A DNA stretch of 32,320 bases, taken from assembly GCA_937858895.1 (NCBI GenBank), contig CALLZN010000262.1, positions 1 to 32,320 of the forward strand, written 5' to 3'. This stretch comes from an uncultured bacterium. Lineage in GTDB: Bacteria > Planctomycetota > UBA1135 > GCA-002748355. Of the stretch, positions 9,639 to 23,499 are shown piece after piece. The notes under the pieces were generated by a model. That model was not told the DNA's origin, searched no databases, and worked only from the letters and a program-made list of their open reading frames with translations. The position numbers were made by a program, and so were the translations under genes. Every line of letters starts with the position of its first letter. Positions within the stretch are counted from its first letter, which is position 1.

Positions 9639-12407
9639 TCAGCGAGCCCGCACGGTGAAGCGCAGGGCTTCACTGCCGACGACGCCCGCTTCGAGTCCGA
9701 TGAGAGCTTGGACGACGAAGGTCTCGTCGACGAGGGCGGGCAGACGCAAAGGAACTTCGAAGAGCAGTGTGCCGCGCTCATCGGCGACGCCGTCGATGAC
9801 GATCGCCGCTGCAGCATCGACGAGCAAGGTCGTCGCGCCGAAGTCTCGGGCCGCGAGACGCCGCCCGATGACCAGGGCTGCGGGCGTCTTCGCACGCCCC
9901 GTCTCGACGACGAAGCCGAAGTCTCGCGCGAAGAGTCGCGGCGCATCAACCGCACGCAGCAAGCCCGGGGCACGCGACGCCGACGGCAGGGCGACGAGGG
10001 CGGCACCTTCGTCGCCGTCGAGGATCCCATTGCGATCGGCATCGAGGGCCTGGCGCCGCCCGCTCCCTGGTGGCACGCCACGCGCCAAGAAGCGCGCCTG
10101 GCCGCGCGCCACGCGCTCGACCATGTCCATGCGCGTAAAGGCAAGACCACTGCGATCGGCCACGAACTCACGCTCTGCAGAGTCATAGAAGACCCGCGTC
10201 GCGCGTCCGTCGATGTCACCGCTCAGCACGAAGTCGCAATCGCCTTCCTCGGCGCGCGCGATCATGAGGTCCAGGAAGGCCGCTGTTTCGACCGAGCGGA
10301 TGTCTCTTGCCTCGAGCAGGTGCGCATGCCCCACGGTCGGCGCGGTGCCGCTATCGAAGGAGAGCACGAAGCGCTCGAGCATGCGCTTGGTCGCGTCGTC
10401 CCGAACGGCGTTGGCAAAGATCGGTCGGGACAAAAAGCTCACGACCGAGTCCTCACTGCCATCATGAAGGAGGCCGAAGCCCGAGGCACGTCGACCGTCC
10501 ACCACACGACGGCCCATGCGCCGATAGGCCGTCTGGAGCTGGGCCGTCTTCATCGGTTGCAAGCCCTGCAGGGTCGAGCCGTGGAATATGCCACCGTTCG
10601 TGCCGCCCGGAGCGGCATGGCAACTCACACACTTGAAGCTCGAGAAGATCGGCACTTCATGAAAGAAGCGCCGCCCGTCCTCGGCGCTCTCGCCGAGCGG
10701 CAAGCGCGCGTAGCTACGATCCCGCTCTTGGTTCGGGTTGGGCATGTGCTCGAGGGACATCACGAAGGCCTCGAAGCTCTGCATGTCGGCGGCGTCCAAG
10801 CGCTCCCCGCCGAGCAAGGTCTCGAAGGCCCCGTTGAAGTCGGCAAAGCGCGGCTTGTCACCCCGCCAGTGAAAGGGCTGATCACCCGCAAGGCCGATGA
10901 GCGTCTGGGTCGTGAGCGCGCCCTTCATCGGATGCAAGCTGCTGAGCGCGCCCTCGAGCGTCCGCACGCGCACCAAGGGACCGTTCGGATCGCCGAGATC
11001 CCAAGCCAAGCCGTCAATGCCGGCATCGACATGGCAGCTCGCGCAGGAGGCCGTACCGTTCCCCGAGAGCTTGGCGTCGTAGAGGAAGCCACGCCCCGCA
11101 CGCAGTTCGCGCGGCAGCGGGTCTTCGGGCAGGGCGACTTCGTCGACGACGACCGCCTTCGCCAAGTCCACCACGACGAGCGTCGAGCTGATGCGGCATG
11201 CGACGTAGGCCACAGTGTCCTGGGGGTGAAGCGCGAGCCCGCGCGGGCCGCGCTTCTCGCGCGGGGCGACGCGCGTGCCTGCTGTCGTGCCGACCTCGAT
11301 GCGTTGCAGGACGCGACCGCGAACGTCGAGACGCGCGATGCGATCCGTCCCGAAGGCCGCCACGTAGAGTGTGCCGTCACGCGCGACTTGGACGTCGGTG
11401 ACCTCCGCGAGCGCCGTCGCAAGTGCCGCCGGGTTCGGTAGCCGCTCGTAGTCGATGTCAGGGTTCAGGTCGACGGCCTCGACTTGGCCACTGTCGGGGT
11501 CGACGAAGCTCGCACGATGCGTGACGAAGTGACCACGCAAGGCGGGCTCGAAGCGCACACGATTGCGCGCTTCGCTTCCCGTGACGGCCAGCCGCCCATC
11601 GCCCAGCAGCGCGATGCCGTGGAGCGTCGTCCCGACGCCCGAAGTCGTGCCCACGAGCCGCAGGCTCGCGACGTCGATCGAGAAGACATCGATGTCGGCC
11701 AAGTCCACGCCAAGCCGTTGGCTCCACAGCGGATCACGAGCATCGACGATCGACGACACGTGTGGTGGCCGTGGCAGGCCAGGCCCCGCGATGCCGGGCA
11801 GTGGCCGCAACGGGTCTGTCTCAGACACGACCGTCGTCCCGTTACCGGACTGGCGCATGATGCCGTGAACGAGGCCGCGGCGCGCGTCGTAGACGAGCGC
11901 GTGAGGCTGCATGCCGAGCACGTCGATGGACGCGTAGGCTTGCAGGCTATCGGCGTCGAAGACGCGCACGCGATTTTGGAGCGCGAGGCTCACGAAGGCG
12001 AGCGTGCGGCCTCGACCCTCGACGAGGACCACGTCGCTCGGCTCGTCGCCAACGTCCAAGCGCCGCGTGACGCGCCGCTCCCTCAAGGACACGATGCTGA
12101 TCGAATCACCGAGGCGATCCACGACCCAGAGACAGTCGGGGCTGCGCTCTCGGACAGCGACGGGTCGCGAGCCGACATCTATCTCATCGATGAGGCGTGG
12201 ACGCAGCGGGTCGCTCAAGGTGTAGACGAGGAGGCTGTCCCGCGGCGTGTGCACGACGAAGAGCCGCGTCCCGTCGGTGCTGACCAAGACGGGCCTCGTC
12301 GCCCCGACCTCGTAGTTGCGATGATCCTGGGCGGCGAGGAGCCTGGTGCCGCAAGCGCAGAGGACCGCAGCGACCAACGCGATGAGGCGCGAGGCTCGGC
12401 GGTCCAC
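9639..12407 (-). CDS. Exported beta-propeller / di-heme cytochrome c peroxidase-like protein
   Basis: 922 residues with an N-terminal signal segment (RLIALVAAVLCACGTRLLAAQ). Residues about 30-440 form YncE/lactonase-like propeller repeats (VSTDGTRLFVVHTPRDSLLVYTL, VARDGTLYVAAFGTDRIARLDVRG, ALHPQDTVAYVACRISSTLVVVDL). Two haem c sites follow: CASCH at residues 455-459 and CVSCH at 593-597, in the order and spacing of the MauG/cytochrome c peroxidase family. A calcium-type EF-hand or dockerin-like loop (LDADRNGILDGDE) lies near residue 820, then a beta-rich C-terminal domain. It likely acts in the periplasm or outside the cell as an electron-transfer or peroxide-linked oxidase; the substrate is not evident. 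The start lies 8 bases after the SH3-like gene stop, so the two are almost certainly co-transcribed. Confidence 0.9.
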   Translation of the reverse strand: MDRRASRLIALVAAVLCACGTRLLAAQDHRNYEVGATRPVLVSTDGTRLFVVHTPRDSLLVYTLSDPLRPRLIDEIDVGSRPVAVRERSPDCLWVVDRLGDSISIVSLRERRVTRRLDVGDEPSDVVLVEGRGRTLAFVSLALQNRVRVFDADSLQAYASIDVLGMQPHALVYDARRGLVHGIMRQSGNGTTVVSETDPLRPLPGIAGPGLPRPPHVSSIVDARDPLWSQRLGVDLADIDVFSIDVASLRLVGTTSGVGTTLHGIALLGDGRLAVTGSEARNRVRFEPALRGHFVTHRASFVDPDSGQVEAVDLNPDIDYERLPNPAALATALAEVTDVQVARDGTLYVAAFGTDRIARLDVRGRVLQRIEVGTTAGTRVAPREKRGPRGLALHPQDTVAYVACRISSTLVVVDLAKAVVVDEVALPEDPLPRELRAGRGFLYDAKLSGNGTASCASCHVDAGIDGLAWDLGDPNGPLVRVRTLEGALSSLHPMKGALTTQTLIGLAGDQPFHWRGDKPRFADFNGAFETLLGGERLDAADMQSFEAFVMSLEHMPNPNQERDRSYARLPLGESAEDGRRFFHEVPIFSSFKCVSCHAAPGGTNGGIFHGSTLQGLQPMKTAQLQTAYRRMGRRVVDGRRASGFGLLHDGSEDSVVSFLSRPIFANAVRDDATKRMLERFVLSFDSGTAPTVGHAHLLEARDIRSVETAAFLDLMIARAEEGDCDFVLSGDIDGRATRVFYDSAEREFVADRSGLAFTRMDMVERVARGQARFLARGVPPGSGRRQALDADRNGILDGDEGAALVALPSASRAPGLLRAVDAPRLFARDFGFVVETGRAKTPAALVIGRRLAARDFGATTLLVDAAAAIVIDGVADERGTLLFEVPLRLPALVDETFVVQALIGLEAGVVGSEALRFTVRAR

Positions 12408-15206: not shown

Positions 15207-15283
15207 TGGCGCGCCCGGCAGGATTCGAACCTGCGACCGCCGGATTAGAAGTCCGATGCTCTATCCAACTGAGCTACGGGCGC
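15207..15283 (-). tRNA. tRNA-Arg (anticodon TCT)
   Basis: Read on the minus strand from 15283: acceptor GCGCCCG, T8-A9, D-arm GCTCAGTTGGATAGAGC, anticodon stem with loop CTTCTAA (anticodon TCT), T-arm GCAGG-TTCGAAT-CCTGC, and 3' acceptor CGGGCGC, which pairs fully with the 5' strand. Discriminator G and an encoded CCA (15207-15209) complete it. TCT reads AGA/AGG, rare arginine codons in such GC-rich DNA. Confidence 0.97.
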
Positions 15284-19302: not shown

Positions 19303-20214
19303 TCAGAGCTGTTCGAGCAGCGTTTCGATGCGCGCCTGAAGGTCGGTGCCCTTGAGGCGACCAAGCAGGATCGCCAGCTTGGTCTTCGCGGCCTTCGCGT
19401 CGGTCTTGCTCAGTTCTTCGAGCTGATCGACTTGCGCCGACGCGGCGTCGAGCGCGAGCCCCTTGATCTTGGTGACGCGGGCGACGGCGAGCTCGGGCCA
19501 ACCGCTTGCTGCCTTCTCCAACTTGGCGACGGCGGCCAGTGCCTTGTCGAGGCGTTGCTTCGCGACCTCCTCGCGGACGGTCGCCTCGGCTTCGTCGATC
19601 TTGGCGAGGTCCTTGCGCGTGAAGTCGGCCTTGCCGTGCTTCTCTTCGATGGCCTTGCGCGCGGCGGTGGCCGCATCGCTGACCTGGCCTGCGCTCATGC
19701 CCCCCTTGAGGCCTTCGATCTTCTCGAGCGTGAACGGATCGACGAAGGACGTGTGCGGGATGGCGCCCGTGTCGTTGTAGCTGCCGGCCTTCGACGAGTT
19801 CATCTTGTTGATGTCCTCGACGCTCAGGTTCGGAAACTCGACGAGCAAGGCGACCTTGTTGCCGCTCGCGTCGGTCGCCTCGTAGGTCTCAGCCTTCTTG
19901 TCCTTCTTTTGGACACCTTCGTCGAGACGGCTCATCGCCATGACCTCGACGGTGTTGTCCTCGGCGAACTTGATGTACTTCTTGTTCTGCAACACGGCAG
20001 AATGCATGCCCCAGCAAGGGCCTCAGTAGAAGCCGTGGCTGTGCACCACGATCGGCAGCTTGAGGAGCTTGGCCTCTTCTACGGCAGCGTCCCACGTCTT
20101 GGCGTAGGTGACGCTCGGCTTGAGCTTTGGCTTTTTGCCCTGGGCCTGGGTGACGCTGCCCATGACCGCGAAGGCGGAGAGGGCGAGCCATGTCAACGGG
20201 GTCGTGTGCTTCAT
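19303..20214 (-). CDS. Candidate selenoprotein: secreted thioredoxin-like protein with UGPC motif
   Basis: 303 residues if the single in-frame TGA (20025-20023) is read as selenocysteine. Residues 1-25 are a signal peptide (TWLALSAFAVMGSVTQA, then QGKK). A thioredoxin-like start follows: KTWDAAVEEAKLLKLPIVVHSHGFY, then U64-G-P-C67, then WGMHSAVLQNKKYIKFAED. This is where thioredoxins have WCGPC, so the TGA replaces exactly the attacking cysteine while the resolving cysteine is kept. The frame is otherwise open from ATG 20214 to 19303. After the domain comes an Ala/Lys/Glu-rich helical tail (about 150-303). A SECIS-like hairpin follows the TGA. Likely a periplasmic thiol/disulfide oxidoreductase. 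Alternatives are a nonsense mutation or a base error, which would not be expected to hit this codon by chance. It lies 73 bases after the FemAB fusion gene. Confidence 0.85.
19985..20002 (-). promoter_or_regulatory. SECIS-like hairpin downstream of the in-frame TGA
   Basis: On the minus strand TTCTGC-CGTGTT-GCAGAA forms a perfect 6-bp stem with a 6-base loop. The stem begins 21 nt after the TGA and the apical loop 27 nt after it. The second loop base is G followed by U. Bacterial SECIS elements lie inside the coding region shortly after the UGA and have a G among the first two loop bases for SelB binding; this one fits both rules. The stem is at the short end, and no outer extension was seen. 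Confidence 0.65.
20023..20025 (-). other. Probable selenocysteine codon (TGA)
   Basis: The only stop in an otherwise continuous 304-codon frame. It sits between TTCTAC (Phe-Tyr) and GGCCCTTGCTGG (Gly-Pro-Cys-Trp), in place of the first Cys of a thioredoxin CGPC motif. Confidence 0.82.
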
Positions 20215-20287: not shown

Positions 20288-22474
20288 TCACGGCAAGTGC
20301 CGGAAGAGCTTACCTCCGAGAGCGCTGACAACGGGCCTTGGCAACTTCTGCCAGGCGCGCTTGTAGCCGCTCAGCTTCGGGTTGTCCGGCGTGAAGTCGG
20401 GCAGTTTGCCGGATGGGCTGAGCCAATACTGGTAGCCGAGCGGCTGGACCTCGAAACCCATGTTCCTTTTGAAGCTGGCTGGCCCGCTGTCCTTGCGACT
20501 GCGCCCGAAGTCGAACGAGCGGATCCCATGCTCGACAGCCCAGGCCATGAGCGCCCAATACATGTAATTGTTGACGCCAGGCACGCCCGGGTCTGCGAGG
20601 ACACCCGAGTAGTAGGGCAGGATCTGGTCGCGGAAGCGTAGCGACAAGACAGCAGCGACCGCCCGGCCCGAGCCGGTCCGAACTTCATGCAGCACACAGT
20701 TCTGCCCGAAGTTCGCACGCAGAGTCTTGAGCATGGAAAAGGGCACCGTCGGCGAACCAAGTGCCTGCTTGTTCTCGGTGAAGAGCCGGTGGAAGCGACG
20801 CAGGTCGTCGGATTCGACGAGCTGCAAGCCAGCTTGGATGCCCTTGCGCACCTCGGCGCGGGCCTTGCGCGGGATCGCCTCGAGGCAGGCCTCGGGTGTC
20901 GTCGGCAAGTCACGGACGAAGGTCACGTAGCGATCGTTGTGCACGAGGTCGACACCGAGCTTCGCCGCATCGTAGGCCTCGAAATGTCGAAGCTCGAGGT
21001 AGGCATGGCCACGCTCCTTCGTGCGTTCGATCGCGACCTCGATCAGGCGACGCGCCGCTTCGTCGTCCGTGGCTGCTATGCCACCGTAGACCGCGAAGGG
21101 CATGGAGATCGAGACCTTGCCGAGGAACATCGACTTGATGCCGAACCACGGCAAATAGCCGACGATGCTCTCGCCACGCTCGACCACGACGCAATCGGCG
21201 TCGACGCGGAGCTCGGACTCGACCATGCGCCGCCAAGCGCTCGTGTGGTAGACCGTCCCGCGCGGGCATTGCGCGAGGAAGTCGTCGAGCATCGCGTCTT
21301 CGCCCGGCGACGGACGACGCAATCGCAGCTCCGACGACGCCGCCGCGTTCTCGAGTCGCTCGAGCACTTCGACGCGCGGCGCGTCATCGCCGCCCGTATC
21401 GACGTCAGCACCCGCGACTCGTGAAGCAGCCGCATCGTGAGTCTCACCCGGTCGGAGCGCCGCGACGAGCGGAGTGACCTTCCCACTCGTCAAGATGCGA
21501 TCGATCTTGTAGTCCTTCAGGTCCTTGCTCTGCGTGAAGATGATGATCTCACCGACGAGACCGAAGCCGATGAACTGCAGGCCGAAGGAGATCAAGACCA
21601 CACCGAGCAAGACGATCGGGCGGTCTTGAATACTCGACTGGATGAAGACGCGTGAGAAGACCGGCGGCAGCGCGATCGCGAGTCCGATCGTCACGAGCAC
21701 GAGGCCGATGATGCCGAAGAAGCGCAGCGGCTTGTGGGTGAAGCGCGTGAGGAAGGCGACCGCCACGATGTCCAGCAGGCGCCTGAAGTAGACCCCGACC
21801 CCGAAGAAACCGGTCTTGCCCCGCTCTTCGCGGTGCACGACTTGAACCTCGCGGACCGCGAAGCCGCGACGCGCCGCCATGATCGGCAAGAAGCGGAAGA
21901 GGTCGCCATAGAGTGCGACCTCCTCGAGCACCTCGCGGCGCATGAGGCGGAAGCAACAATTGAGGTCGTGCAGGCCGACCTTCGAGAGCAGGCGCAGCGA
22001 CCAGTTGAAGAGGCTCGATTGCCACTGGTTGAGCTTTGCATCGATGCGCGGATGCCGCCAAGGGCTGATGAGGTCGAGCTTCTCACGGTCGAGGCGCTCG
22101 ATCATCGGTCCGATCGACTTCGGATCGATCTGGAGATAGTCCCAGGCCGTGAGCAAGAGGCGGCCGCGCGCGTGGCCGAGGGCTGCCCTGAAGGCGATCG
22201 ACTCACCATGGCCGCCACCCTGCAGGGCCACGACGCGCACGTCGTCACGCTCTTGCTGCAAGCGCTCGAGACGCTCGACCATGGCCGGACTCTGGCCATC
22301 CAGGATGAAGACGTACTCGCCGCTGCGCCCGATTTCTTTGAGCGCATGCGCATAACTGCGCACGAGCACGTGAATCTGCGCATCGGGGTCCGTGACGTAG
22401 ATCAGGACCGAGATCTCGGGCACGGAGGCGGAATCGGACGACGGGGCTGCGTGAGCGTCGAGCACTTGAGTCAC
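20288..22474 (-). CDS. Fusion of a GT2-like membrane domain with a FemAB/GNAT-type aminoacyltransferase domain
   Basis: 728 residues from a GTG at 22474 whose GTGA overlaps the preceding GT2 stop by four bases; the frame opens further upstream but that part is antisense-like. Domain 1 (about 20-240) resembles dolichol-phosphate-sugar synthase-type GT2, ending RFLPIMAARRGFAVREVQVVHREERGKTGFFG. Two membrane helices follow (about 253-275 and 287-312) and a linker. Domain 2 (about 380-728) is FemAB-like: GTVYHTSAWRRMVES, GYLPWFGIKSMFLGKVSISMPFAVYGG, LELRHFEAY, RKARAEVRKGIQAGL, YWALMAWAVEHGIRSFDFGRSRKDSGPASFKRNMGF, similar to the FemAB proteins linked to XrtA/PEP-CTERM exopolysaccharide systems. 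The GT2 DxD is lost: residues 109-118 read TAWDYLQIDP where the neighbour has TMDGDLQNDP. Domain 1 may bind rather than transfer sugar. Confidence 0.9.
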   Translation of the reverse strand: MTQVLDAHAAPSSDSASVPEISVLIYVTDPDAQIHVLVRSYAHALKEIGRSGEYVFILDGQSPAMVERLERLQQERDDVRVVALQGGGHGESIAFRAALGHARGRLLLTAWDYLQIDPKSIGPMIERLDREKLDLISPWRHPRIDAKLNQWQSSLFNWSLRLLSKVGLHDLNCCFRLMRREVLEEVALYGDLFRFLPIMAARRGFAVREVQVVHREERGKTGFFGVGVYFRRLLDIVAVAFLTRFTHKPLRFFGIIGLVLVTIGLAIALPPVFSRVFIQSSIQDRPIVLLGVVLISFGLQFIGFGLVGEIIIFTQSKDLKDYKIDRILTSGKVTPLVAALRPGETHDAAASRVAGADVDTGGDDAPRVEVLERLENAAASSELRLRRPSPGEDAMLDDFLAQCPRGTVYHTSAWRRMVESELRVDADCVVVERGESIVGYLPWFGIKSMFLGKVSISMPFAVYGGIAATDDEAARRLIEVAIERTKERGHAYLELRHFEAYDAAKLGVDLVHNDRYVTFVRDLPTTPEACLEAIPRKARAEVRKGIQAGLQLVESDDLRRFHRLFTENKQALGSPTVPFSMLKTLRANFGQNCVLHEVRTGSGRAVAAVLSLRFRDQILPYYSGVLADPGVPGVNNYMYWALMAWAVEHGIRSFDFGRSRKDSGPASFKRNMGFEVQPLGYQYWLSPSGKLPDFTPDNPKLSGYKRAWQKLPRPVVSALGGKLFRHLP

Positions 22475-23499
22475 GCCTGCTCTCCGGTTTCGACAAGCTC
22501 TCTCCCCGCGTGCTGGAAGAAGCCCGAGACGTGAACCGAAAGTTCGCAGAGCAGGCCCAGCAAGAAGAGATTGAGCGCCGTGACGAGCATCAGGACCCCA
22601 CAGGTGATGTAGCTGATGTCCCACGAAGTGAGCATGCGGACACCGTTTCCGTCACCGAACTTGAGGAGGCCCAAGAGGATGAAGCCAAAGGCGACGAAGA
22701 AGAGCGGGAAACTCACGAGGCCAAAGTAGCGGATCGGGTGACTCGCGAAGCGCACGAGGAGGCGCACGACGAGGAGGTCGGTGAGGACGCGGAAGATGCG
22801 ACCGATGCCATACTTCGACTTGCCATATCGGCGAGCGTGATGCTGGACCGGCACTTCACGCACGCGACCGCCGACGCCAGCGGCGAGCGCCGGGATGAAG
22901 CGGTGCATGTCCGAATACAGATGCAGCTTGCGAACGACCCAGGAGCGGTAGGCCTTCAGGGTGCAGCCGGTGTCGTGGATGCGCACGCCTGTGAAAGTCG
23001 AGATGAGGCGATTCGCGATGCGGGACGGCAGCTTGCGAGAGAAGGCGCGATCCTGGCGGTCGCGGCGCCATCCGCAAACGACATCGAAGCCGTCCTCGAG
23101 GGCGGCGACGAGGCGCGGAATGTCAGCGGGGTCATTCTGGAGGTCACCGTCCATGGTCACGACGCGGTGTCCGCGGCACACGTCGAAGCCCGCAGCCATC
23201 GCCGCCGTCTGGCCGAAATTGCGACTCAGGAGAACGACGCGAAGGCGTGGATCGCGCCGCGCCGCTTCGGTCAAGAGTTCGCGCGTGCCGTCCGTCGAGC
23301 CGTCGTCGACGAGGACGAGCTCGTAGGTCCCCGGCATGGTCGCGAGGGCACGGCGCAGCGCCGCCAGCAGAGGCGGCACGTTCTCGAACTCGTCGTAGAG
23401 CGGAACCACGACCGACAGATCGGGGGCCATTCTCGTCGTATGGCCGTGGGGTTGCGGGCCGTGAGGTTGCTCAGTCATCCGGCGCGGCAGTATAGCCAT
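22471..23499 (-). CDS. Membrane glycosyltransferase family 2 (DPM1/ArnC-like)
   Basis: 342 residues from ATG 23499; Mets at 23478 (MTEQ) and 23430 (MAPDLSVVVPLYDE) are also plausible starts, since the stretch before LSVVVPLYDEFENV is His/Pro-rich. GT-A motifs are intact: LVDDGSTDGT, LSRNFGQTAAMAAGFD, TMDGDLQNDP (DxD) and CTLKAYR. Two C-terminal membrane helices follow (FGLVSFPLFFVAFGFILLGLL and ITCGVLMLVTALNLFLLGLL), the layout of enzymes that move a sugar to a polyprenyl-phosphate carrier. It is coupled by a four-base overlap to the GT2-FemAB fusion, so the two likely act on the same lipid-linked product. Confidence 0.92.
   Translation of the reverse strand: MAILPRRMTEQPHGPQPHGHTTRMAPDLSVVVPLYDEFENVPPLLAALRRALATMPGTYELVLVDDGSTDGTRELLTEAARRDPRLRVVLLSRNFGQTAAMAAGFDVCRGHRVVTMDGDLQNDPADIPRLVAALEDGFDVVCGWRRDRQDRAFSRKLPSRIANRLISTFTGVRIHDTGCTLKAYRSWVVRKLHLYSDMHRFIPALAAGVGGRVREVPVQHHARRYGKSKYGIGRIFRVLTDLLVVRLLVRFASHPIRYFGLVSFPLFFVAFGFILLGLLKFGDGNGVRMLTSWDISYITCGVLMLVTALNLFLLGLLCELSVHVSGFFQHAGRELVETGEQA

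Follow-up and report, generated by a model that had tools for sequence, protein, structure and literature searches.

A predicted exported selenoprotein family with a thioredoxin fold, a UxxC motif and a helical C-terminal domain in uncultured Planctomycetota

Does a TGA at the active site of a thioredoxin-like reading frame end a gene, or is it read as selenocysteine (Sec)? This question is raised by a locus in the window, meaning the whole stretch of 32,320 nucleotides analysed here (contig CALLZN010000262.1 of assembly GCA_937858895.1, an uncultured bacterium of the Planctomycetota). On the minus strand, from 20214 to 19303, translation gives a frame of 303 codons that begins with ATG and contains one internal TGA in the context S-H-G-F-Y-U-G-P-C-W-G, while the terminal stop at 19305-19303 is TGA as well. 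The initial annotation had placed a TGA at the first Cys of a CGPC motif (Y-U-G-P-C-W), and its coordinates, motif and reading are exact. Its description of 304 codons with a single TGA holds if the terminal stop is counted as codon 304 and the one TGA is the internal one, but the terminal TGA went unmentioned. The features of the locus are as follows.

19303..20214, minus strand: full coding sequence of the predicted selenoprotein, 303 residues plus a TGA stop (19303-19305), with the frame kept in homologues
20143..20214, minus strand: predicted signal peptide, residues 1-24, MKHTTPLTWLALSAFAVMGSVTQA, from sequence with the boundary set by eye
20023..20025, minus strand: in-frame TGA, the putative Sec codon, residue 64, from translation and homologue alignment
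20014..20025, minus strand: predicted active-site motif U-G-P-C, residues 64-67, from translation and alignment
19985..20002, minus strand: bSECIS-type apical hairpin UUCUGC-CGUGUU-GCAGAA, 20 nt after the UGA, from family comparison
19699..20109, minus strand: thioredoxin-fold domain, approximately residues 36-172, Thioredoxin_7-like, from Pfam, AlphaFold2 and Foldseek
19756..19761, minus strand: Ile-cisPro motif, residues 152-153, with P153 invariant in the alignment
19309..19692, minus strand: C-terminal all-helical domain, approximately residues 175-302, AlphaFold2 pLDDT ~86-92, conserved in the family

Conservation of the TGA column

Homologues were sought in two ways, by scanning 84,980 species genomes with a pattern and by searching 392 genomes of the phylum in six frames. 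The scan returned five relatives (L010-L014; 41-69% identity), each from a Planctomycetota metagenome-assembled genome and each with TGA at column 64 (5/5). The six-frame search gave a match in 60 genomes, around 25 of them with strong, mostly full-length homologues (E < 1e-50), and most of these homologues have exactly one internal TGA, the remaining ones having TGC or TGT at the column. Counted over independently assembled Planctomycetota genomes, more than 25 homologous genes (32-70% identical) have TGA at exactly column 64. As the same frame and the same TGA recur in the five scan relatives and in most strong homologues of the phylum, the TGA column is far beyond chance. The strong members, once extracted and aligned, share the motif H-G-F-[YFKN]-U-x-x-C-W or a close variant, and both flanks of the TGA are conserved: 18 columns do not vary across the 26 aligned members, among them H60, F62, U/C64, C67, H71, N77 and P153. 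Distant relatives (~26-30% identity), with H-K-D-x-U-G-x-C and other motifs, also have TGA at the same column.

Cys homologues, which the initial annotation had suggested looking for at position 64, do exist: TGC or TGT replaces TGA in five full-length members (L016, L019, L025, L029 and L057). In the tree, the Cys forms are scattered among Sec forms, with five label changes, at least three of which are forced by well-supported branches, and genome G154 encodes one Sec copy and one Cys copy. Within the window's own family, represented by eight genomes, the gene is present in seven (7/8), G393 among them. The G393 homologue (L095, contig C110, around 567-1439) has neither Sec nor Cys at column 64 (HKIDGPECK) and keeps Cys67 and the helical domain. 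The initial annotation had counted homologues of this kind against its reading, and this divergent gene is the single exception found to a column in which UGA is otherwise exchanged only with Cys. TGA-bearing paralogues are also seen in tandem pairs (L056, L058, L059, L061-L063) and are possibly partners.

Under the standard code, the TGA would be a real stop, leaving either two separate genes or a pseudogene created by a nonsense mutation or a sequencing error, and the ATG at 20007 could start an ORF of 234 residues. Yet dozens of independent genomes have this codon at this column, the frame of the Cys homologues runs uninterrupted across column 64, and the codons directly after the TGA are themselves constrained, as described below. 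Split genes or a pseudogene, now very improbable, were rejected as refuted by the conservation of the TGA column.

The hairpin and the selenium machinery

In bacterial SECIS (bSECIS) elements, a G is found in the first two positions of the apical loop; that of the E. coli fdhF SECIS reads GGUC. The hairpin of the window lies just 3' of the UGA and has a G in the first two loop positions. It belongs to a subgroup of 14 genes from several families with the form TGA-N20-UUCUGC-CGUGWU-GCAGAA, in which both stems are invariant and one gene has a CGUGCU loop. Since this subgroup is invariant, no covariation is available from it. Instead, constraint is seen at the codon level: codons +7 to +10 and +12 (CAT TCT GCC GTG. 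CAG) are identical in 14/14 genes, with Ser always encoded by TCT and His by CAT, against an average share of only 65% for the commonest codon at other positions of the gene. The His upstream of the motif is mostly encoded by CAC, and the Cys homologues use CAC at +7.

Covariation comes from a second subgroup of 22 genes, mostly with a GGUC loop, of the form TGA-N17-GCACC-GGUC-GGUGC. Here, 97.3% of cells are paired, with compensatory changes of CG to UA, GC, AU and GU and nine two-sided changes; neither the pairing nor the covariation score was equalled in any of 500 shuffles, and sliding the hairpin lowered the paired fraction to 19-55%. A synonymous-codon folding test gave a mean z of -1.66 for 43 TGA genes, compared with -0.41 for six Cys genes; 19 of the TGA genes and none of the Cys genes lie at or below 5%, on rows that lack independence and include a few duplicates. 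The Cys homologues also lose the hairpin pattern. For the window's gene alone, the synonymous-codon folding test fell short of significance (z -1.33, with 12.8% of shuffles being as stable), and the thermodynamic folding of its own hairpin was unremarkable against shuffles, so the case for the hairpin rests on the family. The two clean consensus forms, one with the GGUC loop, are usable for finding further genes of this kind.

All four components on which the initial annotation had made its reading depend are encoded in the window's genome, each above its curated cut-off (4/4). The tRNA-Sec is found on contig C152 (71.6 bits) and is also called by ARAGORN, selA (469.8 bits) and selD (356.6 bits) are adjacent on C165, and selB (359.4 bits) is on C188. 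The selD gene carries a TGA of its own (S-A-A-G-U-A-A-K). In the window, the only structured RNA found was a tRNA-Arg (anticodon tct; 15207-15283, minus strand). Across genomes, selA is present in every TGA-bearing genome tested, being a fragment at a contig end in G176 (263.5 bits, just below the cut-off), and four of the five genomes with only weak TGA-free matches have no selA above the cut-off. As genomes without the selenoprotein gene mostly have selA as well, many relatives among them, this co-occurrence is supporting and not decisive.

The Sec machinery and the hairpin, which accompanies the internal TGA and is lost in Cys homologues, also bear on a reading in which a changed code or unassisted readthrough inserts Cys or Trp at the TGA without selenium. 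Nothing specific speaks for it beyond the existence of some Cys homologues, and the gene itself and 25 of the 48 family members end with TGA, which argues that the codon has not been reassigned. It would be surprising if this reading were correct, and a recoded genetic code was rejected with TGA serving as terminal stop and the Sec machinery present. With Cys homologues, Sec machinery and a conserved 3' hairpin all found, the initial reading as a selenoprotein is supported, and, judged from sequence, the 303-residue protein is almost certainly a selenoprotein.

Fold, export and relation to known families

The protein is likely exported, as a hydrophobic, signal-peptide-like N-terminus is found in essentially all members (46 of the 48 examined, with a plausible signal-peptidase site by eye), in line with the signal peptide proposed initially. 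The thioredoxin fold and the helical extension of that proposal likewise stand. For the fold, profile, model and motif agree: the protein displays a beta-alpha-beta start, the UxxC/CxxC motif, a fold match and, at residues 152-153, the predicted cis-Pro of thioredoxins. The Pfam profile Thioredoxin_7 (PF13899) scores 21.0 bits, below the curated cut-off of 27, and rises above threshold in distant members (29-34 bits). AlphaFold2 run on six sequences gave a mean pLDDT of 71, with a thioredoxin-type domain whose active-site loop is of low confidence, and with this model Foldseek returned 3f9u, an exported cytochrome c biogenesis-related protein, and DsbH as best matches. The helical domain is predicted with confidence and matches no known selenoprotein family. 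A sequence search of the PDB gave no match for the single sequence, and a profile search gave only helical matches of doubtful meaning.

Like the exported reductases of the Thioredoxin_7 (PF13899)/DsbH/DsbD-gamma type, the protein has a signal peptide and a thioredoxin fold with a CxxC-type motif and cis-Pro; however, its sequence match to them is sub-threshold only, it would have Sec in place of the attacking Cys, and it adds a long C-terminal helical domain. The Trx7/PDZ (NF041199) and VPGUxxT (NF041382/NF041383) selenoproteins, relatives of which occur in the same genome, are likewise exported proteins of Thioredoxin_7 fold with Sec, but their Sec motifs are CxxU and VPGU, the window protein gives no match to their models, and NF041199 has a PDZ domain where the window protein has the helical tail. 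Membership in NF041199 would call for a score over the model cut-off, a PDZ domain and CxxU, none of which the window protein has. TsoB (NF045694), a rhodanese/DsbD fusion, is matched with 16 bits against a cut-off of 805, over 63 residues only. The known UxxC selenoproteins share a UxxC motif in a thioredoxin-type fold and include Sec-thioredoxin (PF00085), the Prx-like thiol:disulfide oxidoreductase, the thiol:disulfide interchange protein (PF13098), the thioredoxin-like protein with the HUIPC motif (NF047660) and SaoT (NF040730); no listing describes any of them as a helical-tailed Thioredoxin_7 protein with UxxC, and none matches above cut-off.

No model in NCBIfam release 20.0 covers the family; what reaches a family profile after standard gene calling, which cuts the gene at the TGA, is at best the tail without the active site. 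The main text of an inventory of 119 prokaryotic selenoprotein families (PMC13188914, 2026) neither includes a helical-tailed UxxC family of Thioredoxin_7 type nor mentions Planctomycetes, and the same holds for a 2022 review (PMC9312934) by word search and in parts of its tables. Given its absence from these three sources, the family is rated as a candidate new selenoprotein family among the thioredoxin-fold UxxC selenoproteins. No published account of it was found, yet an earlier listing is possible in the supplementary tables of PMC4807772, which reports selenoproteins or candidates in two Planctomycetes.

Possible function in the cell envelope

Probably, the protein is an exported thioredoxin-fold selenoenzyme whose UGA is read via the hairpin and which acts as a thiol-disulfide reductase recharged by DsbD. 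In this scheme, SelB with Sec-tRNA would read the UGA, helped by the hairpin, and the precursor would be exported. The selenolate of Sec64, at the position of the attacking Cys of CGPC, would attack a disulfide or oxidised thiol in extracytoplasmic substrate proteins, and Cys67 would resolve the mixed selenosulfide, leaving an Se-S bond; its re-reduction may fall to a membrane reductase of the DsbD type, which in the window's genome is likewise TGA-bearing. The C-terminal helical domain would probably hold or recognise the substrate protein. Substrate, redox direction and electron donor are those we infer, and the specific assignment as an exported thiol-disulfide reductase or isomerase is moderately likely.

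The gene neighbourhood offers no operon partner pointing to a substrate, as no neighbour is conserved beyond close relatives; in some genomes of the window's family, a phosphatidylserine decarboxylase and a SIS-domain gene lie nearby. Elsewhere in the window, on the minus strand, 9642-12407 encodes a 922-residue protein with a match to di-haem cytochrome c peroxidase (MauG-type) and a beta-propeller-like part, and 20291-22624 is a single open frame that joins a glycosyltransferase family 2 (GT2) domain with a GNAT domain of FemAB-like type and overlaps the end of a further GT2 gene (22474-23499).

A genuine exported selenoprotein could also be something other than a general disulfide reductase, such as a thiol peroxidase or repair enzyme, or a holdase of the chaperedoxin kind that binds unfolded exported proteins through its helical domain. 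CnoX/YbbN chaperedoxins, which are cytosolic, TPR-type and devoid of Sec, similarly join a thioredoxin domain to an all-helical domain, and YbbN/CnoX-type structures occupy Foldseek ranks 4-5 (E 3.6e-3 to 5.7e-3), albeit with TM-scores of only ~0.23-0.25. The conservation of the helical domain across the family fits such alternatives, as does the G393 homologue, which lost the active site and kept the rest, hinting that the tail has a role apart from redox. However, no TPR or other Pfam repeat was matched, and redox catalysis is favoured by the otherwise unvarying UxxC/CxxC motif and cis-Pro. We consider a peroxidase, repair or holdase role unlikely.

Returning to the favoured reductase, the window's genome has one DsbD_TM gene (contig C229; L078 1406-3820, minus strand, 805 aa), consisting of an N-terminal region, DsbD_TM and a gamma domain with an in-frame TGA at its CxxC (FTGVTUTNCRGME). 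Single-TGA forms of DsbD are common among related genomes (L081-L092). In all nine TGA-bearing DsbD loci with a readable motif region (9/9), the TGA is followed by a hairpin with a GGUC loop, which is absent in the two Cys forms read (2/2). A TGA-bearing DsbD is not found in the main text of the 119-family inventory (PMC13188914). Given this DsbD and its hairpin, a selenium-based envelope relay is plausible.

Also in the same genome is a Trx7/PDZ selenoprotein gene (L079 1237-2631, contig C215), which scores 326.6 bits against the NF041199 cut-off of 300. It carries a haem-type CxxCH motif and TGA twice in frame (FRUVPUTDC), compared with a single Sec (CxxU) in the inventory's entry for the family (PMC13188914). 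Four more Thioredoxin_7-type genes have an in-frame TGA (L073 1405-1947, L075 1381-2781, L077 1271-2461 and L076 on contig C125), with the motifs VPGUSTC, TYUPHC, SYAYUGPCK and SYSPUPPCK. With these four genes, selD, DsbD and Trx7/PDZ, the genome appears rich in selenoproteins. It could tentatively be speculated, as a proposal held at somewhat less than even confidence, that an envelope reducing relay of uncultured Planctomycetota runs from a U-x-x-C DsbD gamma domain to several exported Sec thioredoxin-fold proteins, including the window protein with its substrate-binding helical domain.

The locus would add a widespread selenoprotein family for uncultured Planctomycetota, a phylum that goes unmentioned in the main text of the 2026 inventory and in the searched text and table parts of the 2022 review. 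Together with the TGA-bearing DsbD and the further Trx7 TGA genes, it raises the testable question of why a bacterial envelope may run its thiol chemistry on selenium.
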